From positions 1,073,226-1,137,225 of the forward strand of contig NZ_BAAADV010000001.1 of assembly GCF_039522665.1 (NCBI RefSeq): a DNA stretch of 64,000 nt. The letters are read 5' to 3'. A model generated the notes under the pieces. That model was not told where the DNA came from. It saw only the letters and a program-made list of their open reading frames with translations, and did not search any database. Made by a program: the position numbers and the translations under genes. The stretch's first letter is position 1. Each line of letters opens with the position of its first letter. This document shows positions 2 to 46,788 of the stretch, piece by piece. This stretch comes from Natronoarchaeum mannanilyticum (GTDB lineage Archaea; Halobacteriota; Halobacteria; Halobacteriales; Natronoarchaeaceae).

Positions 2-565
2 ACCCAGTCGGTCGCCGCGAACCGCTACTTCAGCACCGGCGTCCAGGTCGTGCTCGCGTACGTGCTGGTCACCAGCGGTCGATGGGAGGACCTCTGGCCG
101 CTGTTCGGCGGCGCCAACCAGCTGCTGGCCGCGCTCGCGCTGCTGACCGCGACGGTCTGGCTCGCCAACTGGGACGAGACCAAGCAGCTGGTCAGCACCG
201 GCGTCCCGATGGTGGTGATGGCGTCGATCACGGTGCTGGGCTTGCTCTGGCTGGCGCTGTACCAGAACATCGCGGTGAAGCTGCTCGATAGCTCCTGGAT
301 GGCCGACGCGACCGTGCTCGATCTGGTCGGGACGTCCCTGCAGATCGTCATCGCGTTCGTGCTCGTGGGATTGGCGCTGTCGCTGGTCAGGATGGGGTAC
401 AGCAACATCCAGCGCGTCCGGACGGGCGGGGAAGTGGCAGCGGCCGACGGCGGCGAGCCAGGCGAAGGTGAGAGATCCTTCGGATCTCGAACGTCGATAG
501 ACGAGCAACGCGAGTCTATCGGAAGTTCGGACGAGCGAAGCGAGTCCGAAGGAAGCGACGACTGA
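2..565 (+). CDS. cstA: CstA-family transporter, C-terminal part (cut by window start)
   Basis: The frame is open from the first bases, so only the last 187 residues are present. It encodes at least three hydrophobic segments (around residues 12-57, 70-90 and 113-135) and the motif FGGANQLLAALALL, which is characteristic of the C-terminal half of carbon starvation protein A. CstA proteins import peptides or pyruvate across the cytoplasmic membrane; which substrate this one takes cannot be told. After the last membrane helix the protein has a hydrophilic tail of about 45 residues rich in Ser, Glu, Arg and Asp. The DNA of that tail consists of three successive perfect hairpins (472-488, 495-521, 526-550), so the extension looks like an added element and not part of the ancestral fold. 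A T6 run follows the stop codon. Confidence 0.85.
   Translation, partial: TQSVAANRYFSTGVQVVLAYVLVTSGRWEDLWPLFGGANQLLAALALLTATVWLANWDETKQLVSTGVPMVVMASITVLGLLWLALYQNIAVKLLDSSWMADATVLDLVGTSLQIVIAFVLVGLALSLVRMGYSNIQRVRTGGEVAAADGGEPGEGERSFGSRTSIDEQRESIGSSDERSESEGSDD
472..488. repeat. Intragenic hairpin in the cstA tail
   Basis: Perfect 7-nt arms GAGATCC and GGATCTC flank the loop TTC, inside the reading frame of the CstA tail. It is the first of three hairpins in about 80 nt. Confidence 0.7.
495..521. repeat. Intragenic palindromic element in the cstA tail (27 nt)
   Basis: Arms CGATAGAC and GTCTATCG (8 nt, perfect) flank an 11-nt loop, GAGCAACGCGA. The loop and its reading frame (Asp-Glu-Gln-Arg-Glu-Ser) resemble the elements at 526-550 and 42500-42524. 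Confidence 0.75.
526..550. repeat. Intragenic palindromic element in the cstA tail (25 nt)
   Basis: Arms TTCGGAC and GTCCGAA (7 nt, perfect) flank the 11-nt loop GAGCGAAGCGA. The same loop with different arms occurs at 42500-42524 in a histidine kinase, in the same frame (Asp-Glu-Arg-Ser-Glu-Ser). Confidence 0.8.
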
Positions 566-592
566 CCGTCGGCGTCCCCACGCCGGACGCCG

Positions 593-598
593 TTTTTT
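593..598 (+). terminator. Poly-T run after cstA
   Basis: Six consecutive T residues lie about 30 nt after the cstA stop codon, in the short gap before a convergent gene. Archaeal RNA polymerase terminates at such U-tracts, so this is a plausible terminator. No experimental support is visible. Confidence 0.4.
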
Positions 599-611
599 CG
601 CCGGCGACCAA

Positions 612-1214
612 CTACAGCTGTAGCCGTCGCTTGAGCAGATCGAGCAGCCCCGGCTCGGCGCGCTCGATCGACTCCCACGTCGCGAACGCCGACCGAACGT
701 CCGCGTTCTCGCTGGCGACGAGTTCCTCGTCCGAAGGCGCCGTGACGACGAGGTTGATCTCGTAGTGGCCGTGGTAACCGAACTTGATGAGCGTCCGGTC
801 GCGAAAGTCCTCGACGAACGATCGAACGTCGTCGGTGAGCACCGGCGGAACGAGGACGACGGTGAACTCGGTTCCGTAGTGTTCCTCGTCGGGCTCGATC
901 CAGTCGTCGGCCAGATCGTGACAGAAGTCGACGAGATGCTCCAGTTCGGCGACGTACAGCGCGTCGACCCGGCGGACGAACAGGTGCTCGTGGACCTCGT
1001 GCTGGGCGAACGAGATCGAGGGATGCAGGAAGTGCTTCCGGCTCTCCATGTCCATCCGGCCGTACAGCTCGAACGGCTCGTCCCGGATCGTCACGTCGCG
1101 CGCCAGATCGTAGTTGTGCGCGAGCCGGTCGGCGGCGTCGTCGAGGTACTCGTCGTCCCACTCGGGCGGCGAGTCGGTCGTCGGCGGCGGGCGTTCGACG
1201 GCGGAGGGCGCCAT
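612..1214 (-). CDS. Conserved haloarchaeal hypothetical protein
   Basis: A soluble acidic protein of 200 residues with no signal peptide or membrane helix. I do not recognise a named domain. The body contains several His/Trp/Tyr-rich stretches (for example HPSISFAQHEVHEHLFVRR near residue 67). The reading frame stays open upstream, but the ATG at 1214 was chosen because a TATA-like box (CTATATATGG on the minus strand, about 1238-1247) lies some 27 nt before it, which fits a leaderless haloarchaeal transcript. The gene is convergent with cstA. No function can be assigned. Confidence 0.75.
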   Translation of the reverse strand: MAPSAVERPPPTTDSPPEWDDEYLDDAADRLAHNYDLARDVTIRDEPFELYGRMDMESRKHFLHPSISFAQHEVHEHLFVRRVDALYVAELEHLVDFCHDLADDWIEPDEEHYGTEFTVVLVPPVLTDDVRSFVEDFRDRTLIKFGYHGHYEINLVVTAPSDEELVASENADVRSAFATWESIERAEPGLLDLLKRRLQL

Positions 1215-1404
1215 GTGTAAACTGTGATCGAACCACCATATATAGCTGACAGCGGCGTCTCCCGGCGCGAAACGCGACGCCCCCGCGTATCGGGATGACC
1301 GGCGTCGAGACGCCGAAACTCGGCCGAGAAAACGGGGCGAGTTCTGGTCGGCGCTCGGCGGCGCTGAAAACTTTACCAGATTGCGGTCCATAGTCACACA
1401 CAGC

Positions 1405-1617
1405 ATGGGGGAGAAACGGACGGAAGCCTGCGGCCGCTGTGGCATCAGCTCGGCCGTCGACGCGAGCGACGGGGACGGCGAGCGCGACCCGTTCGGTGAC
1501 GAGCGCATCGAGGTCGACGAGCGCGATGCCCGCGCGGCGATGCGACTCCAGGTCGCCGCCGGCCGGCTCAAACGACGCCTCGACGAGCTCGCGACCCGGC
1601 TGACGTACGGGCGGTGA
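1405..1617 (+). CDS. Small hypothetical protein, 70 aa
   Basis: A small acidic protein starting at the ATG at 1405. It has a single Cys-x-x-Cys pair near the N-terminus (ACGRCG, residues 8-13) and a C-terminal half that is probably helical (VDERDARAAMRLQVAAGRL). One CxxC alone is not enough for a complete zinc ribbon, although a dimer could share the site. It stands alone between divergent neighbours and has the local codon usage (G/C third positions). A longer version from TTG at 1381 is possible but less likely. Function unknown. Confidence 0.5.
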   Translation: MGEKRTEACGRCGISSAVDASDGDGERDPFGDERIEVDERDARAAMRLQVAAGRLKRRLDELATRLTYGR

Positions 1618-1751
1618 CGGCGCGGTGATGGCGAGTCGACAGTGGCGTTCGACCGCCGGAACCAAACCACGTCGGCACGGCGAGCGGGCGGTCCCTACGC
1701 ACCGGGGGCAAAGCGTTTAACCGCCCGTGTCCTTAGCGGCTACTCAACGGC

Positions 1752-2465
1752 ATGGAAGAGAGCATCTCCGGGTTCAAGATCCGCGGGGCGTGGGGCGATG
1801 TCGTCGAACACGGCGAGCGGATCACCCGGGCGCTGCGCGACGTCGACGCCAACGAGTCCGCGGGCGAGCCGAGCTACCCGGACGCGTTCGCCGAGTGGGA
1901 CGAGTGGCGACCCAAATCCCACGAGCGCATCGAAGAGGACGTCAGCGAGAAAACGGCCGACCAGGCCAGCGTCAAGGAGGGAAAAGGCGAACAGGCCGGC
2001 AAGAACCCCGACGAGGACATCCGCACCGCGGGGGAGAAGCTCAGCGAGTCCTACGAGAAACTCGACGAGGACGACGCCAACGGCGCGGTCGACAAGTGGG
2101 GCGAGTCGATCGAGTACGTCGCCCGCGCGGCCGACTCGGCGGGCCGCAAAGCGCTCCGGTCCGTGGAGAACACCGTCTACCAGCGCGTGATGACCCAGCT
2201 CGCGCCGTACTACTTCGACAACGAGCTGATCAGCGCGAACCTCCAGCGCTCGACACGCAGCGACGAGGAGGTGTTCGTCTTCGAGGTCAACGTCAACGAC
2301 GACGAGCTCAAAGAGGAGGTGTCCTCCCGGCTCGCCGAGTACGAGGACGAGATCGACCGCTGGCACGTCGACACCGAGAAGGACACCGACGTCGCCGCGG
2401 CCGCGGAAGGCGTCGAACCGCCCGAGGAGGAGACCGACGGTCGATCGAAGCCGTCGTCGAACTGA
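1752..2465 (+). CDS. DUF5828-like conserved haloarchaeal protein
   Basis: A 237-residue, highly acidic soluble protein beginning MEESISGFKIRGAWGDVVEH, which I recognise as the start of a conserved haloarchaeal family (DUF5828, from memory). Residues 70-100 are Lys/Glu/Gly-rich and probably flexible. Residues 105-205 look helical and better conserved (APYYFDNELISANLQRS). The C-terminus is a disordered acidic tail. A TATA-like GTTTAA near 1715-1720 lies about 35 nt before the ATG. No biochemical role is known to me. Confidence 0.8.
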   Translation: MEESISGFKIRGAWGDVVEHGERITRALRDVDANESAGEPSYPDAFAEWDEWRPKSHERIEEDVSEKTADQASVKEGKGEQAGKNPDEDIRTAGEKLSESYEKLDEDDANGAVDKWGESIEYVARAADSAGRKALRSVENTVYQRVMTQLAPYYFDNELISANLQRSTRSDEEVFVFEVNVNDDELKEEVSSRLAEYEDEIDRWHVDTEKDTDVAAAAEGVEPPEEETDGRSKPSSN

Positions 2466-2529
2466 CCCCGGCGACCGCTTCCGCGATGCTTCCCGATAGT
2501 TTTATCATCATTTCTCTGAACCATTCGGT

Positions 2530-3771
2530 ATGCGAACGAGCCGGCGGGATCTGCTCGGAAAACTAAGTGCCGCCGGAGCGACGAGCGTCCTGGCGGGCTG
2601 TGGCGTGAAAACGACATGCGGCTGCGCTCCGCCGCCGGGGCGCGGCGACGCGATGCTCTGGCACGCGATGAGTGAGTCAAGGACCGAGACGTTCGAGGAG
2701 AGCCTCGAAATGTACAACGAGGCGAAAGACGTGAAGATCGTCACCGAAGAAAACGGCGACCTCCGGAGCGCCGTCACGACCAGGTTGGCCGCCGGTGACG
2801 GCCCCGAGATGTACCGCTGGACCCAGAACTGGACGGGCGGGCACTGGGAGCGCGATTTCCTGTACGACGCCAGCGACGACCTCAAGGTCGATCCCGCCGA
2901 TCAGTTCAGTTCGCCCGCGGTCGAGGCGATCACGGTCGGCCCGGACGACGCCGTCGTCGGGCTGCCGGTCGCCAGCCAGACGGTCGGGCTGTTGTACAAC
3001 GAGGACATGGTCGATGAACCCCCGGAGACGTTCGACGAGATGGAGTCGATCATGCAGGAGCACAACGACCCCACCCAGGGCAAGTTCGGCCTCTCGCACC
3101 CGATCGACGCCTACTTCGCCAGCGCCTGGCTGCACGCCTTCGGCGGTTACTACCTCCAAATCGACGAAAACGGCGAGGGAGAAACCGGAGTAGATCTCGA
3201 CGCGACCAAGCGCGGGATGGAGTTCCTCCGCGACCGCATCTGGCCGTACGTCGCACTGGGTCTGGACCGCGAATCCCAGCGAGACGTGTTCCGGAACGAA
3301 AACGCGCCGCTGGCGATCAACGGTCCCTGGGCGATCGGGGCCTTCGAGGACAGCGGCCTCGACGTCGGCGTCGCTCCGTTACCCGCCATCGACGGCCACG
3401 CGCCCGCGCCGTACACGGGCACCTCGATGTGGTACTTCTCGGCCCGCATGGCCGACGACGCCGAGCGCCGCGACGCGGCGCTGGAGTACGCCGAGTGGAT
3501 TTCGACGAGCAGGGAGCGACAGCTGGCGCACGCACGGGCCCACGGCTCGGTTCCGGTAGTCGACTCGATCAGCGACGACAGTCTCGGCGAACAAGTTGCC
3601 GGGTTCAAACGCTCCTACGAGAGCGGGATCCCGATACCGAGCCACCGGCGGATGAACGAGGTCTGGGCGCCCGTCGAGGACGCAATCTACGCGGTACTAC
3701 AGGACAGCGCAGATATCGACTCACGGTTCGACGAAGCCGCCGCGACGATCCGATCGAACTGGCGGCAGTGA
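2530..3771 (+). CDS. Extracellular solute-binding lipoprotein (family 1 type), orphan
   Basis: A 413-residue protein with a Tat signal (Arg5-Arg6 in TSRRDLLGKL) and a lipobox LAGC with Cys24, so it is probably exported folded and lipid-anchored outside the cell. The mature part resembles ABC-transporter binding proteins of the sugar type, including a YNEDMVDEPPETFDEM stretch typical of the family and Trp/Tyr-rich segments likely to line a carbohydrate pocket. Just after the lipobox is an unusual short Cys/Pro-rich stretch (KTTCGCAPPP). No permease or ATPase gene lies next to it, so its partners must be elsewhere or it acts alone. A TATA-like TTTTATC lies about 28 nt before the start codon. 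Confidence 0.8.
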   Translation: MRTSRRDLLGKLSAAGATSVLAGCGVKTTCGCAPPPGRGDAMLWHAMSESRTETFEESLEMYNEAKDVKIVTEENGDLRSAVTTRLAAGDGPEMYRWTQNWTGGHWERDFLYDASDDLKVDPADQFSSPAVEAITVGPDDAVVGLPVASQTVGLLYNEDMVDEPPETFDEMESIMQEHNDPTQGKFGLSHPIDAYFASAWLHAFGGYYLQIDENGEGETGVDLDATKRGMEFLRDRIWPYVALGLDRESQRDVFRNENAPLAINGPWAIGAFEDSGLDVGVAPLPAIDGHAPAPYTGTSMWYFSARMADDAERRDAALEYAEWISTSRERQLAHARAHGSVPVVDSISDDSLGEQVAGFKRSYESGIPIPSHRRMNEVWAPVEDAIYAVLQDSADIDSRFDEAAATIRSNWRQ

Positions 3772-3836
3772 CGCCGGCGAACTCACGGCGCTCGGTCGGT
3801 AGGCACTTGTAGGGGCCGGCGGTAGTACGCCGATAG

Positions 3837-5018
3837 ATGGTCGACGCCGCGACGCTGGCGACGCTTCTGGTTGCGGGGCTGGCGAGTATGTTCATGGCCT
3901 GGGCGATCGGCGCCGGCTCCAGCGGGTCGACCCCGTTCGCGCCGGCGGTCGGCGCCAACGCGATTTCGGTGATGCGGGCCGGCTTCTTCGTGGGACTGCT
4001 GGGCTTTCTCGGCGCCGTATTGCAGGGCGCGAACGTCTCCGAAGCGGTCGGACGAGAGCTGATCGGCGGCGTCTCGCTGACCCCTACGGCGGCGACGCTC
4101 GCGCTGATCATCGCGGCGACGCTGGTCGCGATCGGCGTGTTTACCGGCTATCCCATCGCGACGGCCTTCACCGTCACCGGCGCGGTCGTCGGCGTCGGGC
4201 TGGCGATGGGCGGCGATCCCGCGTGGGCGAAGTACCGCGAGATCGGCGCGCTGTGGATCCTGACGCCGTTCGTCGGCGGGGGGATCGCCTACGTGACGGC
4301 GAAGACGCTGCGAAACGACTCGTGGGACGAGCAGGCGACGGTACCGGTGCTCGCCGGGCTGGTCGGCGTGATCCTCGCGAACGTCGAGTTCGTCGTGCTC
4401 GGCCCGCCGGGCGAGGGCGCCACGATCGCCCAGACGATCGCCGGCCCGCTGCCGCTGTCACCGATCGCCGGGCAGGCCGTCGCGACGCTCGCGCTCGGCG
4501 CGTTGTCGGGACTGGCGCTGTATCGCGACCTGCGCGTCGACGCCGACCGCGGACAGCGCCGGTTCCTGCTCGTGATGGGCGGACTCGTTGCGTTCTCCGC
4601 GGGCGGGAGTCAGGTCGGACTGGCCGTCGGACCGATGCTCCCGCTGGTCGAACCGCGGGGCGTGCCGGTGACCGCCGCGCTGGTCGGCGGCGGGCTCGGG
4701 CTGCTCGTCGGCTCCTGGACGGGCGCGCCGCGGATGATCAAGGCGATCGCGCAGGACTACTCCTCGCTGGGGCCGCGCCGGTCGATCGCCGCGCTGATCC
4801 CCTCGTTCGCGATCGCTCAGACCGCCGTCTTCTTCGGCATCCCCGTCTCCTTCAACGAGATCATCGTCAGTTCGATCATCGGCAGCGGCTACGCCGCGGG
4901 CGGGGGCGGCGTCAGCGCGAGCAAGATGGGGTACACGGTGTTCGCGTGGATCGCATCGCTCGTCGGCGCGATCGTCGTCGGATACGCGGGATACACCGGC
5001 GTTTCGCTGCTGTTCTGA
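3837..5018 (+). CDS. Inorganic phosphate transporter, PiT family
   Basis: A 393-residue membrane protein with about ten hydrophobic segments. The N-terminal signature GSSGSTPFAPAVGANA (about residues 29-44) and a second related half near residues 340-365 (GGGGVSASKMGY) match the duplicated PHO4 architecture of PiT carriers, which bring in phosphate with a cation. The gene is preceded by a short gap and followed by a convergent small zinc-ribbon gene. No PhoU-like partner lies beside it, although such a partner is common in other archaea. The substrate could also be sulfate, as for some family members, but phosphate is the usual one. Confidence 0.87.
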   Translation: MVDAATLATLLVAGLASMFMAWAIGAGSSGSTPFAPAVGANAISVMRAGFFVGLLGFLGAVLQGANVSEAVGRELIGGVSLTPTAATLALIIAATLVAIGVFTGYPIATAFTVTGAVVGVGLAMGGDPAWAKYREIGALWILTPFVGGGIAYVTAKTLRNDSWDEQATVPVLAGLVGVILANVEFVVLGPPGEGATIAQTIAGPLPLSPIAGQAVATLALGALSGLALYRDLRVDADRGQRRFLLVMGGLVAFSAGGSQVGLAVGPMLPLVEPRGVPVTAALVGGGLGLLVGSWTGAPRMIKAIAQDYSSLGPRRSIAALIPSFAIAQTAVFFGIPVSFNEIIVSSIIGSGYAAGGGGVSASKMGYTVFAWIASLVGAIVVGYAGYTGVSLLF

Positions 5019-5053
5019 GAGCGCGCCGCAAAGAAAGTAGAAGGGTACTGCCG

Positions 5054-5185
5054 CTACGACGAGCGCCACGGCGCGACGCCGTCGTCGAGTTCTCCGCCGC
5101 AATCCGGACAGGTCGCGCGGTACGATACCGGGTGGACGGTCCGTTCGCACTCGCTACAGCTGTACCGTTCTTTTTGTATACTCAC
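5054..5185 (-). CDS. Small zinc-ribbon protein (rubrerythrin-like domain), 43 aa
   Basis: Two Cys-x-x-Cys knuckles (CSEC and CPDC) 18 residues apart make a complete rubredoxin/rubrerythrin-like zinc ribbon in a protein of only 43 residues. The GTG at 5185 is taken as the start because it directly precedes the conserved part (SIQKERYSCSEC). An ATG at 5251 would add 22 unconserved residues. Such one-domain proteins are common in haloarchaea, with unknown roles, perhaps in nucleic-acid or protein contacts. It converges on the phosphate transporter. Confidence 0.7.
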   Translation of the reverse strand: MSIQKERYSCSECERTVHPVSYRATCPDCGGELDDGVAPWRSS

Positions 5186-5404
5186 GTTGGTTTCACCTGG
5201 ATACGACAATGTTCCGGCAGCTATTAATCTTTTTCGTGAACTTTTGTTCATTGTACACCAGTATTACCAGACAGACGCATATACCCAATCTCAACGCTGG
5301 CCGAGCTGCCGTGGATAGTTCTCGCACCGGAACGCCGGCGACGACGAGCGAGGGCTATCCCACGGCTACTCATCGGTCGAAGCCGGCAAAAAGGTCGGAT
5401 CGCC

Positions 5405-6817
5405 TCAGTTGTCGACCGACGTGCCGTTCTCCTCGTCGGCGACGGCCACGTCGTCGTCGTCGGACTCGACCTTCGCTTCTTCGGGCACGTCGAGCTGTTC
5501 CAGCCGGGCCTTCTTGATGCGGGTGTTCTCGACCTCCTCGACGGTGATTCGGGTGCCGTCGTAGGTGATCTCTTCGCCGGCCTCGACCAGTCGGCCAGCG
5601 CGGTTGAACACGAAGCCGGCGACGGTCTCGAACTCCTCGCCCTCCGGGAGGTCGATCTCCAGGGCCTCGTTGACCTCGTGGATGTTGACCTCGCCCTGGA
5701 CGACGGCGCCGTCCTCGACGTACTCGATCGGCTCGTCCTCGCCGCCTTCGAGGATCTCGCCGACGATCTCCTCGACCATGTCCTCCATGGTGATCAGCCC
5801 CTCGGTGGTGCCGAACTCGTCGATGACGATCACCATGTGCATGCGCTCCTCGCGCATCTCGGTGAGCAGCTCGTCGACGTTCTTGGACTCGGGGACGTGG
5901 AGCGTGGGGTTGATCAGGTCCTCGAGCTCGAGCGTCCGCGAGTCGGCCTCGCCGTAGTTAGTGTCCCGAACCAGGTCGCGGATGTGGACGACGCCGATCA
6001 CGTTGTCGAGGCTCCCCTCGTAGACGGGGACGCGGGCGTGCCCGCTCTGGACGCAGGTCTGGAGCGCCTCCTCGACGGAGGCGTCGGCGGGCACCGCGGT
6101 CATGTCGAGCCGCGGCGTCATCACCTCCTTGGCGATGGACTTGTTAAACCGGAAGATCCGCTGGAGCATCTCGCGTTCGTCCTCCTCGATGACGCCCTCG
6201 CGCTCGCCGGTCTCGATCATGTCCTGGATCTCCGAGCGCGTGACGTAGCCCGACTCGATCGCGCTGCCGCCGCCGGTCAGCCGGTTGACCTGCCGGGTGA
6301 GGAAGTCGAACGTGATCACCAGCGGCTTCAGCAGGTACTCGGAGAGCTTCAGCGGGCGCGAGATCGTCAGCGCCCAGGATTCGGTGTGCTCGACCGCGTA
6401 GGACTTGGGCGCGCTCTCGCCGAACAGCAAGACCAGCGCCGTGATCCCGAACGTCGAGACGAGCACCGCGACGATGCCGCTCGTGAGGTACATCCCGACG
6501 AGCGCGGTCGCGATCGACGACATCGCGATGTTGACGAGATTGTTCCCGACGAGGATCGTCACCAACAAGCGGTGAGGGTCTTCCTTGAGCCCTTGAAGCG
6601 TCAGGGCGCCGGGCTTGCCCTCCTCGGCCAGCGACTCGACGCGGTAGTCGGGCAGCGAGAACATGGCGATCTCCGAAGAGGAGAAAAACGCCGAGAGCCC
6701 GATCAGGACGACGATGCACGCCACGCCGAGCACGGCGATCGTCGACTGTGCCAGTTCGATCCCGACAAACGGCACTTCCGCGGCGAGCGGCGCCAACCAC
6801 GAGACAGGTATACCCAT
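5405..6817 (-). CDS. CNNM/DUF21 plus tandem CBS membrane protein (HlyC/CorC family)
   Basis: A 470-residue protein. An N-terminal DUF21 (CNNM) membrane domain with four hydrophobic segments spans about residues 15-200 and contains FFSSSEIAMFSL. It is followed by two CBS motifs (residues about 230-350, including EVMTPRLDM and GVVHIRDLV) and a C-terminal CorC_HlyC domain (about 375-455). CNNM-CBS proteins transport or sense Mg2+ and other divalent cations, with the CBS pair binding nucleotides. The start was set at the ATG at 6817; the upstream in-frame extension has no family match. The last 25 residues are a disordered Asp/Glu tail. Confidence 0.88.
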   Translation of the reverse strand: MGIPVSWLAPLAAEVPFVGIELAQSTIAVLGVACIVVLIGLSAFFSSSEIAMFSLPDYRVESLAEEGKPGALTLQGLKEDPHRLLVTILVGNNLVNIAMSSIATALVGMYLTSGIVAVLVSTFGITALVLLFGESAPKSYAVEHTESWALTISRPLKLSEYLLKPLVITFDFLTRQVNRLTGGGSAIESGYVTRSEIQDMIETGEREGVIEEDEREMLQRIFRFNKSIAKEVMTPRLDMTAVPADASVEEALQTCVQSGHARVPVYEGSLDNVIGVVHIRDLVRDTNYGEADSRTLELEDLINPTLHVPESKNVDELLTEMREERMHMVIVIDEFGTTEGLITMEDMVEEIVGEILEGGEDEPIEYVEDGAVVQGEVNIHEVNEALEIDLPEGEEFETVAGFVFNRAGRLVEAGEEITYDGTRITVEEVENTRIKKARLEQLDVPEEAKVESDDDDVAVADEENGTSVDN

Positions 6818-6999
6818 CGACACGGGTACTTGCCGGGCGGGTGAATTAACTCTTGTGAGGGAAGCCCACGGAACACCCCACCGTTCTGCGGCTGCGACAG
6901 CCGAGCGGCGAGTCCACTCGCACACGTGCTCGATCGACGCGACCGGCAACGACGGCCGTCTGCCCAACGCTTTCACGCGTGCCGTCCCAACTGTACGGT

Positions 7000-7836: not shown

Positions 7837-7843
7837 GCCGCGC

Positions 7844-8395: not shown

Positions 8396-8482
8396 GGCGG
8401 GGGCGACTCGTCGCGACAGCAAAAAGGTACTCGCCCGTCGAGCGGCGTCGGAAAGCCAGCGGATCGACGCCGCTGCGTGGCG

Positions 8483-38214: not shown

Positions 38215-38338
38215 CGACTGCCGACCGCGGGCCAGTTACCGTTCACCATCGCTTTTGGCGTTATCAACACCCCGTGAGACGTTCACAACGGGCGTCAGTG
38301 TTTTTACGGTGGGCTAAAAATAGGGTAGCTGACTATTG

Positions 38339-40333
38339 ATGGCGTCCGATCGCGAACCGATGACCGTCCTCCTCGTCGACCCCGCCGACGCGATGGGCAG
38401 GGTCGAAGAGGCGCTCGTGGGCGAAGACCCGACGATCACCGTCGGGACGGTCGAGTCGCCCGCGGCGGTTTCCGAGACGGACGTAGATCCCGACTGTATC
38501 GTCGTCCTGGAGTACGAAGACGCCGGCGTCGACGGGATCGAACTGCTCCACGACGTCGAGGACCGCGTCGGGGACGTCCCGGTCGTCGTGTTCGTGATCG
38601 ACCCCCGGGCCTATTTCACCCAGCGAGCGCTCGAGGAGGGCGCGGCAGACGTGCTCGCGGTCGGCACCGGCGGCAACCGGGAGTCCGACGAGGACTTTCC
38701 CCTCCTGCTGACCCGACGCGTCCGTCACGCCGCCGACATGGGCGAGTCGTTCCAGACCGACAGCGAGCTGTTGAACTCGGTGATGGAGTATCTCCCCCAC
38801 CAGGTGTTCATCAAGGACGACGTCGGGCGGATCGCCGCGATGAGCAACGTGGCGATGCACGAACACGAGCCCACTCAGAAGGAGATCCAGGGGTTCACCG
38901 ACCACGACCTGTTCGACACCGAACTCGGTCGCGAGCTCTACGAGGAAGAACAGGAGATCATGGAGACCGAGGAGCCGATCATCAACCGGGTCGAACACTA
39001 CGTCGAGGACGGTCAGGACCACTGGGTGTCGACAACGAAGGCGCCCCGCTACGACAGCGACGGCGACGTCGTCGGCATCATCGGAACGGCCCGGGACGTC
39101 ACCGAACAGAAGCGCCGCGAGGTGATGGTCAACGCCCTCCACGCCGCCAGCCGCGATCTGGTGACCGCCGAGACCCGCGACGACATCGCGGCGACGGCCG
39201 TCGACATCGCCGACGACATCCCCGACCTGCCGGTGCTGGAGGTCGTCCTGTACGACGACGAGGCGGAGCACCTCGAGACGGCGGCGACCGGCCACACCGA
39301 CGAGTCCGCGTCCGTGTTCGAACGCTACGAGGAGTGGTTTCGCCGGGCCTACGAATCGGGCGTCGGCCAGTACGTCGTCTCGTTATCGGAGGACGATCCC
39401 GGCGCCGTCGTCGGCTACGCCAAGTCGGAGGTGACCGACGGCGTCGATCCGATCGCGGTCGCGCTCCCGCTGGGCGAGCACGGCGTGCTCGGCTTCGCCT
39501 CGACCAGCGGCACGTTCGACGACGCCGGCGTCGAACTCGCCGAAGTGCTGGCGGCCAACGTCGAGGCCACCCTCGACCGGGCGGCCCGCGAGGCGGCGAT
39601 CCGCGAGCGCGAGCGCGAGCTCGCCCGCCAGAACGAGCGGTTAGAGGAGTTCGCCAGCATCGTCTCCCACGACCTGCGCAACCCGCTGTCGGTCGCGCAG
39701 GGGTATGCCGAGATGTTCGACGAGGACGACGACAGCGCCGAGGAGGTCCGCTGGGCGCTCGACCGGATGGACCGGCTGACCGACGAGCTGCTGACGCTGG
39801 CCCGACAGGGCCAGATCGTCGGCGACACCGAGAGCGTCTCGCTGTCGGGCGCGGCCTGGGACGCCTGGCAGGGCGTCGACACCGGCGCCGCGACGCTGGC
39901 CGTCGAGGACGACGTCGGAACGGTCGCCGCGGATCGCGACCGGCTGCTGGAGCTGCTGGAGAACCTCTTTCGGAACGCCGTCGAACACGGTTCGACGAGC
40001 CCTGACTCGCAGGCTCGTCAGGATGCGATCGAGCACGCCCACAGCGCCGACGATCCGGTCACCATCACGGTCGGCCCGCTAGAGTCCGGCTTTTTCGTCG
40101 AGGACGACGGCCCGGGGATCCCGGATAGCGAAAAAGAAACCGTCTTCGAGCAGGGCTACACCAACGCCGACGACGGCACGGGCTTCGGCCTCTACATCGT
40201 CCGGACGCTCGCCGACGCCCACGACTGGGCGGTCGAGCTCGCCGACGCCGATCCGACCGGCGCGCGCTTCGAGATCACCGGCGTCGAGCGCGGGAAACGC
40301 TCGCCCGGCGTCGACAGCGGGCACCCCACATGA
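38339..40333 (+). CDS. Sensor histidine kinase 1 with receiver-like N-terminus (PAS, GAF-like)
   Basis: A 664-residue soluble kinase, the first of a tandem pair. In order: a receiver-like domain (about 9-130) in which the usual phosphoacceptor Asp is Glu58 (IVVLEYEDAGVDG), a PAS domain (about 140-250), a GAF-like domain (about 265-415), a dimerisation helix with phosphoacceptor His444 (FASIVSHDLRNPLS), and an ATPase domain (about 530-655) with intact N-box (ENLFRNAVEHG), G1 (EDDGPGIPD) and G2 (DGTGFGLYIVRTLA). After the N-box it has an insertion of about 16 residues encoded by a palindromic element. A TATA-like box lies just upstream. Confidence 0.92.
   Translation: MASDREPMTVLLVDPADAMGRVEEALVGEDPTITVGTVESPAAVSETDVDPDCIVVLEYEDAGVDGIELLHDVEDRVGDVPVVVFVIDPRAYFTQRALEEGAADVLAVGTGGNRESDEDFPLLLTRRVRHAADMGESFQTDSELLNSVMEYLPHQVFIKDDVGRIAAMSNVAMHEHEPTQKEIQGFTDHDLFDTELGRELYEEEQEIMETEEPIINRVEHYVEDGQDHWVSTTKAPRYDSDGDVVGIIGTARDVTEQKRREVMVNALHAASRDLVTAETRDDIAATAVDIADDIPDLPVLEVVLYDDEAEHLETAATGHTDESASVFERYEEWFRRAYESGVGQYVVSLSEDDPGAVVGYAKSEVTDGVDPIAVALPLGEHGVLGFASTSGTFDDAGVELAEVLAANVEATLDRAAREAAIRERERELARQNERLEEFASIVSHDLRNPLSVAQGYAEMFDEDDDSAEEVRWALDRMDRLTDELLTLARQGQIVGDTESVSLSGAAWDAWQGVDTGAATLAVEDDVGTVAADRDRLLELLENLFRNAVEHGSTSPDSQARQDAIEHAHSADDPVTITVGPLESGFFVEDDGPGIPDSEKETVFEQGYTNADDGTGFGLYIVRTLADAHDWAVELADADPTGARFEITGVERGKRSPGVDSGHPT
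39977..40036. repeat. Palindromic element with flanking direct repeats in histidine kinase 1
   Basis: Imperfect 12-nt direct repeats GCCGTCGAACAC (39977-39988) and GCGATCGAGCAC (40025-40036) flank an inverted-repeat core. Two overlapping stems can form: ACGAGCC with GGCTCGT (39995-40018), and CCTGAC with GTCAGG (40001-40022). In reverse complement the core reads CCTGAC, loop GAGCCTGCGA, GTCAGG, similar to the 42500-42524 element. The direct repeats code for AlaValGluHis and AlaIleGluHis. Confidence 0.7.
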
Positions 40334-40442
40334 CCCGACGACGACGACCGTCGAACCGACCTGCGGGATCCGCCGTTACTGTTTTGAGTGAGACGTACGA
40401 ACGGGTAGGAACTGAATTTGCGCGAGGGATCGCACGACAGAA

Positions 40443-42566
40443 ATGAACGTACTTCTGATCGACCCGGTCGGCGATCTCCGCGAGGTCGAGCGGTCGCTCC
40501 GGGCCGAGGCCGACGACGTCACGGTCGAGACGGTGTCCGAACCGGCCGCGGTGGCCGACGCCGACGTCGAACCGGACTGCGCTGTCGTCCTCGATCACGA
40601 CGAGGCCGGCGTCGACGGGCTCGAACAGCTGGAAGCGGCCAGAATCTACCTGCCGGACGTCCCGTTCCTGATCGTCGTTCGCGATCCAGACGACGGCGAC
40701 ATCAGGGCCGGCCTCGACGCCGGCGCGGCCGACGTGATCACCGCGGGCCCGGAGGTGCAGATCGACGAGGAGTTCCCGATCGCGGTCGTCCGGCGTATCC
40801 GCGACGTCGCCGGCGACGGCACCTCGTTCCAGACCGAGGGCGAGCAGCTGAACTCGCTGATGGAGTATCTCCCCCATCAGGTGTTCATCAAGGACGACAC
40901 GGGCCGGATCGCGGACGCCAGCGCGGCCGCCGCCGAGGAGTACGGGTTCACCCGCGAGCAGATGATCGGGCTGACCGACTACGAACTGTTCCCGCCCTCG
41001 CACGCGGACTCCCTGTGGGAGGAAGAAAAGGCGATCATGGAGAACGAGGAACCGGTCATCAACAAAGTCGAACACTTCGTCGACGAAGCGGGTCGCGATC
41101 GCTGGATGTCGACGACGAAGGCGCCCCGCTACGACAGCGACGGCGACGTCGTCGGCATCATCGGGACGACCCGCGAGGTCACCGAACAGCACCGACAAGA
41201 GGAGATGATGAACGCGCTCCACGCCGCCAGCCGGGAGCTGGTCGCGACGGAGACCGCACGGGAGATCGCCGAGATCGCCGTCGACATCGCCGAGGAGATC
41301 CCCGACCTGCCGGTCGTCGAGGTGGCGCTGACCGACGACGCGGGCCTGGCGCCGGTCGCGAGCGGGCGAGGAGTGGACGACGAGGGAACGCCCGGCGAGT
41401 CGAGGGAAGCCGACTTCCCCGTCGAACCGGTCGACACTGACAGCCCGATCGAGTTGACGGAGGAGCTGCCCGACGCCGAAACGGCTGCGACCGACGCGTC
41501 CGACGCCGCGGTCGACGCGTCCGATGCAGACGACGCGGCCGGATCGACGGACGCGACGGAGGTCGCGCTCGTCGATCGATACGACGAGTGGTTCCGGCGG
41601 GCCTACGAGACGGGGCGGGCGCAGTTCATCGAGGATCGGCCGGACGAGACGGGCGAGGTTTCGGTCGTCGAGGCCGCCGGCGACGCGGGCGGCGACGTCG
41701 ACGCCGATCCGGTGGCCGTGACCCTGCCGCTGGGCGAGCACGGCGTGCTGGGCTTCGCCTCGACCAGCGGCACGTTCAGCGAGTTCGGCGTCGAGCTCGC
41801 GGCGGTGCTGGCGGCGAACATGGAGGCGGCGCTCGACCGGGCGGCCCGCGAGGAGGCGCTCCGCGAGCGCGAGCGGGATCTGGCCAACCAGAACGAGCGG
41901 CTAGAGGAGTTCGCCAGCATCGTCTCCCACGACCTGCGCAACCCGCTGTCGGTCGCCCGGGGCTACCTCGGGCAGGTCGACGCCGACGAGGAGATCGTCG
42001 CGGAGATCGAGTGGGCGCTCGACCGGATGGACCGGCTGACCGACGAGCTGCTGACGCTGGCCCGACAGGGCCAGATCGTCGGCGAAACCGAGCGCGTCTC
42101 GCTGTCGCGGGTCGCCTACGACGCCTGGCAGGCGATCGACGGCGGCGCCGCGACACTCTCCGTCGAGGACGACGTGGGGTCGATCGAGTCAGACCCGGAT
42201 CGGCTCGTCGAACTACTGGAGAACCTCTTTCGGAACGCCGTGGAACACGCGCACACTCCGGACGATCCCGTCACCGTCACGGTCGGACGGACGGAGACGG
42301 GCTTTTTCGTGGAAGACGACGGCCCGGGCATCCCCGACGACGAGAAAGGCAGCATCTTCGAGCAGGGATACACCAATTCCGATGACGGCACCGGCTTCGG
42401 CCTCTACATCGTCCGGACGCTCGCCGACGCCCACGGCTGGACCGTCGGGGTGACCGACGCCGAGGACGGCGGTGAGGGAACCGACGGGTCGCGATCCTCG
42501 GAAGACGAGCGAAGCGAGTCTTCCGGCGGCGCGCGCTTCGAGTTCGCGATCGAGCAGTCGGCGTAG
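40443..42566 (+). CDS. Sensor histidine kinase 2 with receiver domain (tandem paralogue)
   Basis: A 707-residue soluble kinase, clearly a duplicate of the preceding gene (same domain order and long identical stretches, such as the SHDLRNPLSVA box and TDELLTLARQGQIVG). The receiver domain (about 2-120) keeps its phosphoacceptor Asp51 (AVVLDHDEAGVDG), unlike the neighbour. PAS lies at about 130-250 and the GAF-like domain at about 265-460, with a low-complexity Asp/Ala-rich insertion at about 340-372. The phosphoacceptor is His496, and the ATPase domain has intact boxes. Near the C-terminus a palindromic element (42500-42524) adds about 10 residues. No response regulator follows. Confidence 0.92.
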   Translation: MNVLLIDPVGDLREVERSLRAEADDVTVETVSEPAAVADADVEPDCAVVLDHDEAGVDGLEQLEAARIYLPDVPFLIVVRDPDDGDIRAGLDAGAADVITAGPEVQIDEEFPIAVVRRIRDVAGDGTSFQTEGEQLNSLMEYLPHQVFIKDDTGRIADASAAAAEEYGFTREQMIGLTDYELFPPSHADSLWEEEKAIMENEEPVINKVEHFVDEAGRDRWMSTTKAPRYDSDGDVVGIIGTTREVTEQHRQEEMMNALHAASRELVATETAREIAEIAVDIAEEIPDLPVVEVALTDDAGLAPVASGRGVDDEGTPGESREADFPVEPVDTDSPIELTEELPDAETAATDASDAAVDASDADDAAGSTDATEVALVDRYDEWFRRAYETGRAQFIEDRPDETGEVSVVEAAGDAGGDVDADPVAVTLPLGEHGVLGFASTSGTFSEFGVELAAVLAANMEAALDRAAREEALRERERDLANQNERLEEFASIVSHDLRNPLSVARGYLGQVDADEEIVAEIEWALDRMDRLTDELLTLARQGQIVGETERVSLSRVAYDAWQAIDGGAATLSVEDDVGSIESDPDRLVELLENLFRNAVEHAHTPDDPVTVTVGRTETGFFVEDDGPGIPDDEKGSIFEQGYTNSDDGTGFGLYIVRTLADAHGWTVGVTDAEDGGEGTDGSRSSEDERSESSGGARFEFAIEQSA
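42500..42524. repeat. Palindromic element at the end of histidine kinase 2 (25 nt)
   Basis: Arms GGAAGAC and GTCTTCC (7 nt, perfect) with the 11-nt loop GAGCGAAGCGA, identical to the loop at 533-543. It is read in frame as Glu-Asp-Glu-Arg-Ser-Glu-Ser-Ser, just before the last beta strand (ARFEFAIEQ). Confidence 0.8.
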
Positions 42567-42590
42567 AAGCGACAGCGGAGGGGGCCGGGG

Positions 42591-42968
42591 TCAGCGTCGG
42601 GCCAGCCAGTTCCGAACCGCGGTCAGGATTTTCGATCCGCGAGTCGCCGAGCCCGAATGAGGTTCCGCGGACTCGACGGGCGCGCGCTCGGCGGCCCTGC
42701 CGCCGCCGCGGCGCTCGGACAACAACGCCTCGTAGCGCTCGGTCACGCGCCGGCGCTCCTCGCGATCGTCTCTCAGTTTTCGTTCGAGCGCCGCTGCGCG
42801 CGCTCGCAGCAGCCGATTCTCGGTCCGGATCGCCGCCCGCGATCGCCGACCGTCAGCGTCGACGGTCGAGTTCGGCGCCGTCCCAGTGCGTTCGCCGATC
42901 GAGGGGCCATCCGTGCCATCGAGCGGGGTGTCGATCTGGCCGTCGAGAGAGGGGTCGTTGAGCGACAT
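42591..42968 (-). CDS. Hypothetical coiled-coil protein, 125 aa
   Basis: A 125-residue protein: a disordered Asp/Pro/Gly/Thr-rich N-terminal 45 residues and a basic helical stretch of about 50 residues (RTENRLLRARAAALERKL) likely to be a coiled coil, then a short C-terminal segment ending ILTAVRNWLARR, which could be amphipathic and membrane-facing. It is convergent with the kinase pair. I use the ATG at 42968. The family is not recognised, and the call rests on codon use and the plausible coiled coil. Confidence 0.5.
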   Translation of the reverse strand: MSLNDPSLDGQIDTPLDGTDGPSIGERTGTAPNSTVDADGRRSRAAIRTENRLLRARAAALERKLRDDREERRRVTERYEALLSERRGGGRAAERAPVESAEPHSGSATRGSKILTAVRNWLARR

Positions 42969-43088
42969 CGGACGACCGAAACCCACGAGATACTATAATG
43001 AAAAATTATGTGAGACGCGCGTCCGACGCGCGGCATCCGGCGGCGCAGCGGGGCAGTTGCGGGGACGAGAGTGCCCCCAATCGGCAGA

Positions 43089-44345
43089 TCAGTCGAGGTG
43101 CTCTAGAACACCCTCAGTGTCGCCCGGCACCGGTTCGGGGTCGGCGCCCGCCGCCGCCGCGGCGTCGGGATCCTTCAGCAGGTGTCCGGTCGTCAGGCAG
43201 ACGACGTTCTCGTCGGCGTCGACGACGCCGCGGTCGCGGAGCTTCCGGAGGCCCGCGATCGACGCCGCGCTGGCGGGTTCGACGCCGACGCCCTCCTCGG
43301 CGAGCGAGCGCTGGGCGTCGGTGATCCGCTCGTCGGAGACGGCGACGGCGGTGCCGTCGGTCTCGCGGATGCCGGGGATCGCCTTCGGCGCGTTGACCGG
43401 GTTGCCGATGCGGATGGCCGTCGCGCGCGTCTCGACGTCGTCCCAGCGGTGGATCTCGTCGTTGCCCTCCTCGATCGCCTCGACCATCGGCGCGGCGCCC
43501 TCGGCCTGGACGCCGGTGAGCTTGGGCACCTCCGTCTCGTCGAGTTCGCCGGCCTGGACGAGCTCGCGGAACGCCTTGTACAGCGCGCTGGTGTTGCCGG
43601 CGTTCCCCACGGGGAGCACGATCCGGTCGGGGAACTCGCCGGTACGAGACTTGCACTGCTCCAAGATTTCGAGGCCGATCGTCTTCTGGCCCTCCAGTCG
43701 GAAGGGGTTCAGCGAGTTCAGCAGGTACGCCTCGCCCATCCCCGCCAGATCCTGGACGATGTCGAGGCAGGTGTCGAAGTTGCCGTCGACTTCGAGGATC
43801 CGCGCGCCGTGAAGGCTCGCCTGCGCGACCTTTCCGGCGGCAACCTTCCCCGCCGGCAAGAGTACGAGCGTCTCCAGTTCCGAGCGGGCGCCGTAAGCGG
43901 CCAGCGCGGCGCTGGTGTTTCCAGTGGAAGCGCAGGCCAGCCGGTCGACGCCGAGTTCGCTGGCGACCTGCACGCCCACGGTCATGCCGCGATCCTTGAA
44001 GCTGCCCGTCGGGTTCATCCCCTCGTGTTTCACGTGGAGATGCTCGACGCCGGTCTCCTCTTCCAGATCGGGCACGGAGTACAGCGGCGTGTCGCCCTCC
44101 TGGATGGTGACGCCCATCTCGACGGGCAGGGCGTCGTCGTAGCGCCAGACGCCCCGGCCCTCGAAGTCGTCGAAGGTCGGCAGGTCGGCGTAACGCACCT
44201 CCAGCAGGCTGTCGCAGTCGGGACAGGTGTAGACGACGTCGTCGAACGGCGCGAGGACGTTGTCGCACTCGATACAGGCCAGCCAGACGCCGTCGTCGGC
44301 GACGTCCGGTGCGGCCTCGGCGGGCGCGTCGAGTTCGAGACTCAT
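43089..44345 (-). CDS. thrC: Threonine synthase
   Basis: A 418-residue PLP enzyme that converts O-phosphohomoserine to threonine. An N-terminal zinc ribbon (CIECDNVLAPFDDVVYTCPD) is followed by the fold-type II core with the PLP lysine in PTGSFKDRGMTVG, then RLACASTGNTSAALAAYGA, VLPVGNAGNTSALYKAF and the C-terminal SAASIAGLRKL. The ATG at 44345 is 55 nt from the next gene. It is monocistronic as far as the window shows, and no other threonine gene is nearby. Confidence 0.95.
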   Translation of the reverse strand: MSLELDAPAEAAPDVADDGVWLACIECDNVLAPFDDVVYTCPDCDSLLEVRYADLPTFDDFEGRGVWRYDDALPVEMGVTIQEGDTPLYSVPDLEEETGVEHLHVKHEGMNPTGSFKDRGMTVGVQVASELGVDRLACASTGNTSAALAAYGARSELETLVLLPAGKVAAGKVAQASLHGARILEVDGNFDTCLDIVQDLAGMGEAYLLNSLNPFRLEGQKTIGLEILEQCKSRTGEFPDRIVLPVGNAGNTSALYKAFRELVQAGELDETEVPKLTGVQAEGAAPMVEAIEEGNDEIHRWDDVETRATAIRIGNPVNAPKAIPGIRETDGTAVAVSDERITDAQRSLAEEGVGVEPASAASIAGLRKLRDRGVVDADENVVCLTTGHLLKDPDAAAAAGADPEPVPGDTEGVLEHLD

Positions 44346-44400
44346 TGTCGGTGTGCAAGGGGCCCGGGGGGAAAAGAGAGCGGGTTTTGCGTCGGGGGTG

Positions 44401-44640
44401 TCACGCCGCGGCGTCGAGCGCGGCCTCCGAGATCGGCTCGACGCGGAACACGTAGTCGGAGTACGCCGCGTCGAGGTTCACCGGCGATTCCTCGTCCGTG
44501 TGGGCCCGGCAGAGGACGGTCTGGGCCTCGACGGGACCCTTCCCCGTGTCCTCGAGATACCGTTCGAGAACGACGAACGCGGCTCGCTCGTCGCAGCTCC
44601 GGCGGTCGCAGGTAGGATGTTCGGTTGCGTCGTCGGCCAT
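44401..44640 (-). CDS. Small conserved zinc-binding-type protein, 79 aa
   Basis: A 79-residue protein with cysteines and histidines spaced as in a small zinc site: HPTCDRRSC near the N-terminus and VLCRAH near residue 45. The rest is acidic and probably mixed alpha/beta, ending SEAALDAAA. The ATG at 44640 is divergent from a lipoprotein gene, so the two could share control. The frame continues open upstream, where it overlaps that lipoprotein in antisense and is not coding. Function unknown; such proteins are common in haloarchaea. Confidence 0.6.
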   Translation of the reverse strand: MADDATEHPTCDRRSCDERAAFVVLERYLEDTGKGPVEAQTVLCRAHTDEESPVNLDAAYSDYVFRVEPISEAALDAAA

Positions 44641-44718
44641 ACGAGAGTCTTCGTCGCGCAGCCCAAAGAAGGGTCGACCCCGCACAGTGAAGCGTCGGTT
44701 CGTGGACGTGTGACGCGT

Positions 44719-46788
44719 ATGGGAGAGGAGACGGAGCGCGGAAGCGCGTTGGATCGGCGGACGTACCTCGCGGGAGTCGCCGGGACGAGCACCCTCACCG
44801 GCTGTCAGGGGTGGGACGACATCCCGGCGGAAGCCCAGAGGGGCGACGAGGGAGGCAGCGACTCGGACTTCGTGTGGCTCAGCGGCTCGCTGCTGGCCGA
44901 CGCGCCGATCCGGGAGAACCTGCTCGCGTTCGCCGCCCGGCGCGATCTGGCGGCGATCCTCGCGATCCCGGATCCGAAGGCGTCGGGCGCGATCGAGAAC
45001 CTCCGCGAGGGGCTCGCGACGGCCGACCGCTTCGACGTGCCCGCGTGGCTCCACGCCGGCGTGCTGACCGACGTGACCGCCGACGAGTTCGCCGCGAGCC
45101 GAGAGGCCCGCGAGCGCAACCTGAAAGGGATCCGGCGGGCGGTCGAGGCCTACGGCGAGTTCGAGGCGGGCGGGAAGCTCATCCCCTGGCAGGAGGCGCC
45201 GGTGATGGGCGGGTGGTCCGACGAAAAGTGGGACGACGAGGCCGTCGACAACCTCCGAACGTACGGCCCGGCCGTGTTCGCCGCCCAGCGGCGGGCCGCC
45301 CGCGAGATCGATCCCGAGATCGACGTGGGCGTGTTCGTCCACTTCCCCTACGTCGTCGACTCGAAGCAGCCCCACGTGTTCGCCCGCCTGCTGGACGACC
45401 TCCACCGCCAGGGGACCCCGCCCGACTTCGCGTTCGCGGACTACTACCGCGGCTGGTACGAGAAAGACGTCGGGCCCGAGCCCGCGAACGATGCGGTCCG
45501 GAGCCTCGTCTCGAACGCGAAAACGGGGCTCCGCGGCGGCGACGTCTACTACATGGGCCAGTCCCACACGATCAACCCGGGCCACACGCCGAGCCGGCAG
45601 TCGCTCCGGATGGACCACCGCGCGGCGCTCGACGCCGGCGCCGACGGCGTCGGCTGGTACGCCCGCACCGCGTACGTCCCGACCGAGCAGGGGTTCGATC
45701 CGCTGGTGCCCAATCCCGAAGGATCGGCCGCCGCGGGCCAACAGCGAGCGAGCACGTTCACCGTCGCCCGCGACCGCTACCGGTACGCGTGGGCCGCGAC
45801 GGCCGACGCCAGGGCCGCGATGGGGGGTGCCGGCGCCGCGCCGGGGGACGCCAGCGACGGTACGGCGTCCGCACGAAGCGAGGACGCCGACGACCGGTTC
45901 GACCTCTGGCTGCGCTGTCCCGACGCCGGCTTCTACGATCACCGAATCAGACTCCGGAGCGGTGCGGACGACGGAGACTGGCGCTTCGTCGGCGACGTCG
46001 GGACGTATCTCGACGGCGCCGCGCCGTACGCCGACGCCGGCGCCGAGACGATCCGGGCGCTCGGCCGCGAGCGGTATCTCGACGGCGATCGGCTCGACAT
46101 CGAGATCGAAACCGGCGCGGACGCCGACGCGACGCCGCTCGTCGAGGCCGTGGTCGTCCCGTCCGATCCGGCCGCGCACCTCACGGACGCCGACGTCGCT
46201 GCGACGATGCAGGCGGGCGAGCACTCCGCGGCCGCGCTGGGGCGCGAGCGCGTCGACCGCCGGCTCGCGCCGGGCGAGACGGTGCGGTTCTCGGTCCCGG
46301 TCGACGCCGACGGCGGCGGGTCGGTGGGCGCGCTACTGGGCGAGGAGCGGGCGAGCCTGCGCCGCCGGCTCGCGGACGCCGAAGCGGCCGAGGCGGAGCG
46401 TCCGATCGCCCCGGGAGACCGATTCGACCTGTGGGTCCTCGGCGACGGGCTGCCGGACGCCGAGACGGTCGGCGCCGAACTCCGCGTCGGCAACCTGACT
46501 CGGCCCGGCGAGGCCGCGTTCGTGTCGACGGGGTCGCCGGACGCGGTCCTGTTCAGCGGCATCGACCGTGAGGTGCTGTTCGGAGACGGCGCGGCCGCGG
46601 GGTGGTCCGGGAGCGGAGAGAGCGCGGACAGCAGCCGCCCGGCGTGGCTCGACGGCGTCGGGGCGGTCGTCGCGATGCCGTACTTCGGGAGCGGGAACGT
46701 CGTGACGCCCGCGCGGGCGGCGGAGCTGTTCGCTCGGCAGCCGGGAGAAGTGCGTACGTACGCGTTGGCGGTCGCGTCGACGCCGTAG
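44719..46788 (+). CDS. Large Tat lipoprotein with TIM-barrel-like N-terminal domain
   Basis: A 689-residue protein with Tat signal (Asp12-Arg13-Arg14) and lipobox LTGC (Cys29). Residues about 50-330 look like an alpha/beta barrel (repeated DVPAWLHAGVLTDVTADEF, DVGVFVHFPYVVDSKQ, FAFADYYRGWYEKDV and GADGVGWYART segments), which hints at a glycosidase-like or polysaccharide-linked enzyme. After about residue 390 come beta-rich segments (FDLWLRCPDAGFYDHRIRL; RFSVPVDADG) that may be carbohydrate-binding modules. A palindromic element (45864-45888) sits at about residues 382-390. No transporter or glycan cluster is adjacent. Function not assigned. Confidence 0.72.
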   Translation: MGEETERGSALDRRTYLAGVAGTSTLTGCQGWDDIPAEAQRGDEGGSDSDFVWLSGSLLADAPIRENLLAFAARRDLAAILAIPDPKASGAIENLREGLATADRFDVPAWLHAGVLTDVTADEFAASREARERNLKGIRRAVEAYGEFEAGGKLIPWQEAPVMGGWSDEKWDDEAVDNLRTYGPAVFAAQRRAAREIDPEIDVGVFVHFPYVVDSKQPHVFARLLDDLHRQGTPPDFAFADYYRGWYEKDVGPEPANDAVRSLVSNAKTGLRGGDVYYMGQSHTINPGHTPSRQSLRMDHRAALDAGADGVGWYARTAYVPTEQGFDPLVPNPEGSAAAGQQRASTFTVARDRYRYAWAATADARAAMGGAGAAPGDASDGTASARSEDADDRFDLWLRCPDAGFYDHRIRLRSGADDGDWRFVGDVGTYLDGAAPYADAGAETIRALGRERYLDGDRLDIEIETGADADATPLVEAVVVPSDPAAHLTDADVAATMQAGEHSAAALGRERVDRRLAPGETVRFSVPVDADGGGSVGALLGEERASLRRRLADAEAAEAERPIAPGDRFDLWVLGDGLPDAETVGAELRVGNLTRPGEAAFVSTGSPDAVLFSGIDREVLFGDGAAAGWSGSGESADSSRPAWLDGVGAVVAMPYFGSGNVVTPARAAELFARQPGEVRTYALAVASTP
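45864..45888. repeat. Palindromic element inside the lipoprotein gene (25 nt)
   Basis: Arms GGCGTCC and GGACGCC (7 nt, perfect) with the 11-nt loop GCACGAAGCGA, two substitutions from the loops at 533-543 and 42507-42517. It is read in the same frame, as Ala-Arg-Ser-Glu-Asp-Ala, in a linker between two domains. Confidence 0.78.

Follow-up and report, generated by a model that had tools for sequence, protein, structure and literature searches.

Capped palindromic repeats dispersed between and within genes across the Halobacteria

Analysis of a 64,000-nucleotide (nt) stretch of the Natronoarchaeum mannanilyticum genome (contig NZ_BAAADV010000001.1, positions 1,073,226 to 1,137,225; hereafter the window) and comparison with other haloarchaea revealed small palindromic repeats with variable, paired arms and a constant apex. 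They insert as units, are dispersed, have a structure with covariation, and are spread across the class. We interpret them as a palindromic repeat superfamily of the Halobacteria whose members are small, non-coding, mobile but non-autonomous and are probably moved in trans via the folded hairpin, and put the probability of this reading at about 0.72. A class-wide, structure-defined repeat superfamily is real; it works like the repetitive extragenic palindromic (REP) sequences and the Rickettsia palindromic elements (RPEs), and belongs to neither.

In-frame insertions in the window

A first-pass annotation of the window had listed inverted repeats with 11-nt loops at 495–521, 526–550, 42500–42524 and 45864–45888, and a relative in reverse orientation at 40001–40022. 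All four repeats are present, the last two extending to 42499–42525 and 45863–45889, and the relative is real. The five hairpins are distributed over four in-frame insertions of 78, 57, 48 and 60 nt, every one divisible by three, and homologues without the insert were found at all four sites. The inserted unit is larger than one hairpin (48–78 nt in the window, to about 140 nt elsewhere).

The insertion at 460–537 (plus strand; about 78 nt, 26 codons) falls within a CstA-type protein (Pfam), in the C-terminal tail, and carries three tandem hairpins. Its site is empty in G180, another species of the genus, and in four genomes of another genus; G180 keeps there a remnant of the 3′ end, GCGAGTCCGACGG only. 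The first hairpin (473–489), GAGATCC-TTC-GGATCTC, has a GAA triloop on the reverse strand. The capped hairpin at 495–521 (plus strand) has arms CGATAGAC/GTCTATCG and loop GAGCAACGCGA, a cap variant with an AAC triloop, and its arms and right flank are shared with copies in other haloarchaea. Another capped hairpin, with arms TTCGGAC/GTCCGAA and loop GAGCGAAGCGA in phase 0, occupies 526–550 (plus strand).

In a sensor histidine kinase (HATPase_c, Pfam), a 48-nt in-frame insertion follows the conserved N-box (39986–40033, minus strand) and is missing from three homologues, namely the adjacent own paralogue and both G180 paralogues. It holds an antisense hairpin of the H1 subfamily (H1 and H2 are defined below) with a degenerate 10-nt loop: positions 40001–40022 read CGAGCC-CTGAC-TCGCAGGCTC-GTCAG-GATGC, which corresponds to H1 backwards (CGAGCC-N5-TCGCTNCGCTC-N5′-GACGCC). 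This copy shows that the elements can also occupy the opposite strand. In a paralogous kinase of the same sensor histidine type, a 57-nt in-frame insertion lies near the C terminus (42465–42521, plus strand) and is missing from G180 and both paralogues. There the H2-subfamily capped hairpin CGGAAGAC-GAGCGAAGCGA-GTCTTCCG has 8-nt arms (42499–42525, plus strand), and the segment 42497–42529 has 94–97% matches at about eight further genome sites, where it lies within an H1-H2 compound. The fourth insertion, of 20 codons (45823–45882, plus strand), interrupts an 842-amino-acid frame without Pfam match and is missing from five same-family homologues. Its hairpin, CGGCGTCC-GCACGAAGCGA-GGACGCCG (45863–45889, plus strand; 8-nt arms, loop GCACGAAGCGA), is a doubtful or degenerate member and the weakest copy, with an apex that poorly obeys the cap rule described below.

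All four plus-strand cores begin in codon phase 0, which bears out the common reading frame noticed earlier. The borders of the first three inserts are less certain than those of the insertions in other haloarchaea described below, because the species compared are 85–90% alike or the comparison is with paralogues. Hairpins with 11-nt loops number 16 in the window against 13.4 expected from a first-order Markov control, hardly above chance; the signal is the shared core and not the loop class.

Cap and arm structure

The 11-nt loop of the first-pass annotation exists as described, but is mostly a structured cap. The apex is constant, C-GA-XY-GNA-Y′X′-GA-G, with compensated changes in XY, and the arms are variable yet paired. 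Among hairpins collected ab initio (2×2 mismatch, two pairs, triloop), GA/GA was the commonest mismatch; a GNA triloop was present in 42 of 50 and 22 of 28, a closing C-G pair in 46 of 50 and 24 of 28, with an inner stem that varied from GC/GC to AC/GT to CC/GG. Perfect arms of at least 5 nt flanked 30 of 59 GAGCGNAGCGA cores (51%) in the window's own genome and none of 41 permuted cores (457 kb of stretches chosen for density). Over 246 distinct haloarchaeal cores, arm positions 4–8 pair at frequencies of 0.72–0.39 versus 0.26–0.30 expected, and pairing spans 7–8 arm positions, those beyond being at chance level. When H1 copies were picked by flanks and core alone (66 distinct copies from 48 genomes), 40 had perfect 5-nt arms, with 30 arm sequences, against a permutation mean of 1.5 and maximum of 7. 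On the ab initio and arm-pairing results, we conclude that the "loop" is a cap composed of a C-G pair, tandem G-A pairs, two further pairs and GNA.

In DNA chemistry, unusual stability is known both for GNA triloops and for tandem G-A pairs of the CGAG type, and the cap in single-stranded DNA corresponds to the known GNA minihairpin on tandem G-A pairs. The motif C(GNA)G occurs in 51 of 129 intergenic haloarchaeal triloop hairpins versus 15 of 428 in coding DNA.

These loop statistics also bear on an RNA role, in which the hairpins would be selected as terminators, processing or stability elements of mRNA or tRNA transcripts, and presence or absence would reflect regulatory turnover. The cap is predicted to be stable as RNA (−14.4 versus −12.3 kcal/mol for the complementary strand), and arm mismatches in H1 lean towards G-T/T-G (11) over A-C/C-A (5); over the 246 cores, however, G-T and A-C mismatches are balanced. 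GNRA or UUCG tetraloops are nearly absent (2 of 104), while GNA triloops are strongly enriched. The orientation of intergenic copies to the upstream gene has no clear bias (33 versus 22, T-runs unscored), copies occur in genes, with units inserted inside conserved ones, and no Rfam family matched except tRNA. We therefore regard an RNA role as unlikely.

Subfamilies and larger arrays

At least three subfamilies carry the same apex, with one to several hairpins per copy. Subfamily A comprises H1 (GGCGTC-N5-cap-N5′-GGCTCG) and H2 (CTCG-arm-cap-arm′-CGGyG), which often alternate in arrays. Subfamily B consists of units of about 60–72 nt with arms GCGAGGNC, often in frame within genes. Subfamily C forms cassettes of about 120 nt located 3′ of tRNA genes. 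The H1-H2 compound is about 90% conserved among plasmids of several genera, including those of the Halobacterium pNRC200 type, and in the window's genome H1-H2 copies are embedded in a longer mosaic repeat.

That mosaic repeat, several hundred nt long, has nested palindromes and tandem units around GAGGGCTTTCGAGGTG and occupies many intergenic regions (L082, L086, L087, L091, L092, L096, L098, L099), both in the window's genome and in G139 and G283; some of its copies contain H1-H2 and others lack it. At L140 (5349–5592), three to four tandem subfamily-B units (REGERSEPSEKRAGVAGHAS) run in frame through one predicted protein. Regular tandem core arrays with periods of 59, 66, 68, 104 or 154 nt were seen in G059:C2, G115:C1 and G274:C1.

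Genomic location, reading frame and spread

Of 88 copies located in 1.66 Mb from four genomes, 78 lie between genes. In each genome, the two strands carry similar numbers of elements. All ten in-gene copies read in the sense direction, seven of them in phase 0 and the other three in phase 2, gene counts being approximate since a simple purpose-written gene caller was used; among 22 further in-gene copies, from loci fetched by core, 21 are sense and 18 in phase 0. The elements do enter reading frames, but with most copies between genes they are not mainly the protein-coding palindrome family that had been proposed. In-gene copies encode a hydrophilic stretch such as D-E-R-S-E-S, and genes that contain both H1 and H2 keep the two in a constant relative register. 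The insert peptide was found in none of the solved proteins. We attribute the shared frame to insertion of the elements as a unit, combined with the tolerance of proteins for certain sequences.

The dominance of phase 0 within genes (25 of 32) and the acidity of haloarchaeal proteins would fit a protein motif or codon-usage effect, in which acidic serine-rich tails (DERSES) are palindromic by chance. This is hardly credible, as 88% of copies are intergenic and both arms and inner stem are compensatory. Synonymous-codon shuffling over 1.40 Mb of called genes, a check suggested by the first-pass annotation, removed the copies: ten were observed versus a mean of 0.4, with 0–2 in each of ten shuffles. 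A chance or codon artefact was ruled out by these shuffles and by the permuted cores.

A 16-base pattern, GACGAGCGNAGCGAGTC, was found in 222 of 294 Halobacteria genomes, with one hit for the reversed control, and in one of about 100 other genomes of the same phylum. Three haloarchaea (G014, G021 and G054) had no match to this pattern or to the tRNA cassette model described below. Wide bacterial occurrence was rejected: bacterial contigs match the pattern, but outside the searched positions their arms pair no more than by chance. Association with viruses was also rejected, the 64 IMG/VR contigs that carry the 16-base pattern (by pattern alone) being about the number that chance may give for 2.9 million contigs. 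Three AT-rich contigs (L175, L206 and L211, of which L175 is from Candidatus Aenigmatarchaeota archaeon) have the same core within 7-nt arms, taaaaaattagctgac-cap-gtcagcttacttg.

In open-licence papers, the scope of our literature search, we found no description of the family, in agreement with the first-pass annotation, nor of repeats downstream of tRNA genes; the exact core string appears only in apparently unrelated papers.

Evidence for mobility

The earlier suggestion of mobile or formerly mobile palindromes is supported by the empty sites of the four window inserts, by precise presence or absence between related species and by the excess over codon shuffles. In G266, a 72-nt unit lies in frame in the middle of a YcaO-type gene that is uninterrupted at the same site in five relatives, and dispersed copies of this unit occur in the genus at 83–88% identity. 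Comparison of G283 with G139 (92% identity over 333 kb) revealed a 51-nt in-frame insert in G283 that G139 lacks, made of an H1 hairpin and a second hairpin. G139 has two intergenic inserts, one of 114 nt and another of about 125 nt, which forms an H1-H2-H1-H2 array.

Whole units of 33–72 nt, arms included, recur at dispersed sites at 83–97% identity. This matters for the possibility that each hairpin arises locally, a polymerase switching templates at a short core and copying one flank into its inverted repeat, so that only the core would have to pre-exist. Hypervariable, perfectly paired arms between constant flanks and core are what arm-to-arm templating would produce, and in the tRNA cassettes the T-arm of the resident tRNA recurs in both inverted and direct form. 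Dispersed units complete with their arms, and with empty sites, make this account improbable; template switching may diversify arms after insertion but would not take the place of copying.

Cassettes at tRNA 3′ ends

Of 36 tRNA genes in the stretches surveyed, 20 have their own 3′ end repeated (18 nt, no more than two mismatches) within 260 nt downstream. For all 115 tRNA genes examined, a wider set enriched for elements, a downstream copy was found for 56 and an upstream copy for eight. The unit between the copies is mostly 100–135 nt and is composed of a hairpin, an inverted T-arm, a stem usually with cap, and the tRNA 3′ end. Tandem cassettes of about 120 nt each close with the 3′ end of the resident tRNA (L379, L394, L396 and further tRNA loci; L081, L085, L095 and L098 in the window's genome). 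At tRNA-Lys, G139 has two identical tandem units and G283 none; at tRNA-Glu, G283 has five tandem cassettes, every one ending in the same tRNA 3′ end.

A covariance model of the cassette (R1) has matches in 75 of 79 haloarchaeal genomes. All 30 inspected R1 loci lie 3′ of a tRNA gene on the tRNA strand (13 assigned by script, 16 with a minus-strand gene on the unturned locus, and one with a visible, uncalled tRNA 3′ end). The location at tRNA 3′ ends points to a site-specific recombinase. Archaeal tyrosine recombinases prefer such ends, and low-affinity binding to stem-loops is reported for one XerA (PMC8371274).

Proposed mechanism and significance

Units are copied to new sites and inserted, mostly between genes, with the hairpin structure kept; the copies tolerated in genes preserve the frame. 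In the mechanism that we propose, mobilisation would be in trans, since no unit codes for anything, and since the arms keep shape and not sequence, a folded strand is probably what is recognised. A trans-acting recombinase or transposase would use one folded DNA strand with its GNA triloop and tandem sheared G-A pairs, and arm diversity may arise from stem-loop exchange or template switching. More tentatively, and with considerable doubt, we suggest a shape-recognising cassette system, in which a tyrosine recombinase or Cas1-like enzyme would act on single-stranded GNA-capped hairpins, swap their arms as paired stem-loops, assemble non-coding cassette arrays at the 3′ ends of tRNA genes, and disperse units both between and within genes.

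Several points weigh against the reading as mobile repeats moved in trans through a folded DNA strand. No mobilising enzyme was found, and a constant target duplication, as looked for in a MITE, was not seen at the inserts inspected, two of which have 8–9-nt repeats that are partly element sequence. The nearest two species pairs diverge by about 8–15%, so that no insertion was caught between strains, and the boundaries of inserts vary. The complementary strand is predicted to form an almost equal DNA hairpin (nearest-neighbour energies of −7.4 against −7.8 kcal/mol), so energy models separate the strands weakly and the single-strand claim rests on GNA minihairpin chemistry and loop statistics. 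Subfamily C occupies the transcribed strand 3′ of tRNA genes, which, like the G-U pairs tolerated at some cassette positions, would fit an RNA role as well.

The repeats would constitute a class-wide archaeal repeat system defined by nucleic-acid shape, not sequence, whose apex matches the DNA minihairpin known from chemical studies and used to harden DNA aptamers. They would account for the odd inserts and tails of DERSES or ERASGSE type in haloarchaeal proteins, and the many natural in-frame insertions offer material on how proteins gain segments. The movement of transposase-less palindromes, such as RPEs and CGTC-tagged REPs, would become testable in genetically tractable organisms, with the tRNA cassettes as a separate readout that is simple to follow. 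Haloarchaeal genome annotation and repeat masking would profit immediately.

Comparison with known systems

The GTAG REPs and REPINs resemble the present elements in being tens of nt long, forming hairpins, occurring in pairs or clusters, lying mostly outside genes and being presumably recognised as single strands. These have, however, a GTAG tag and a RAYT (Y1 transposase), whereas here the tag is missing and no linkage to Y1 genes was found. Size, palindromy, compound pairing and presumed single-strand recognition would all agree with REP-type elements that depend for movement on a Y1 transposase of the IS200/IS605 family, after the model of GTAG REPs and their RAYT or of Haloquadratum PATEs; yet two of eight element-bearing genomes tested (G041 and G087) have no Y1_Tnp match, and none of 11 examined Y1_Tnp genes adjoins a capped element, which also speaks against termini related to IS605-type elements. 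Y1 transposases are unlikely as the movers, and we consider this explanation as a whole very improbable.

The PATEs and SMRs of Haloquadratum walsbyi are likewise small, transposase-free mobile repeats of a haloarchaeon without target duplication (PMC3119063). PATEs derive from IS605-type ends; SMRs are bounded by terminal inverted repeats and are mostly >95% identical. In the paper's text, as far as searched, the capped apex is described for neither.

A hairpin recognised by shape, with variable arms, is established for integron attC sites, and integron arrays resemble subfamily C in that tandem non-identical cassettes share a junction at a fixed target. The present cassettes differ in having no cassette genes and a tRNA 3′ end as junction; no integron integrase was found, although none was searched for.

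CGTC-tagged REPs, RPE-4 and RPE-6 among them (Di Nocera et al. 2013, PMC3733652), are also short palindromes with in-gene copies and no known dedicated transposase. CGTC stands at the hairpin foot in H1, where it is part of the search definition, and not in H2, B or C. The stem of 8–9 bp starting with A-T, the loop of 4–5 nt and the CCA tail of those REPs (PMC3733652) are not matched here, where the stem is about 5–8 bp, the cap constant and the other end GGCTCG, and their survey names no haloarchaea (PMC3733652).

RPEs and the palindromic elements of Wolbachia belong to another domain of life and are unrelated in sequence; neither the RPE sequence families nor the Rickettsiales host is matched, and the core pattern found here is specific to Halobacteria. 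Variable arms with a constant apex, several subfamilies and tRNA cassettes further set the haloarchaeal elements apart. Both kinds of palindrome are found between genes and also, in frame, within unrelated genes, and the carrier proteins evidently tolerate the inserted peptide. The analogy with RPEs that had been drawn from the window holds, in-frame inserts and homologues with empty sites having both been found.

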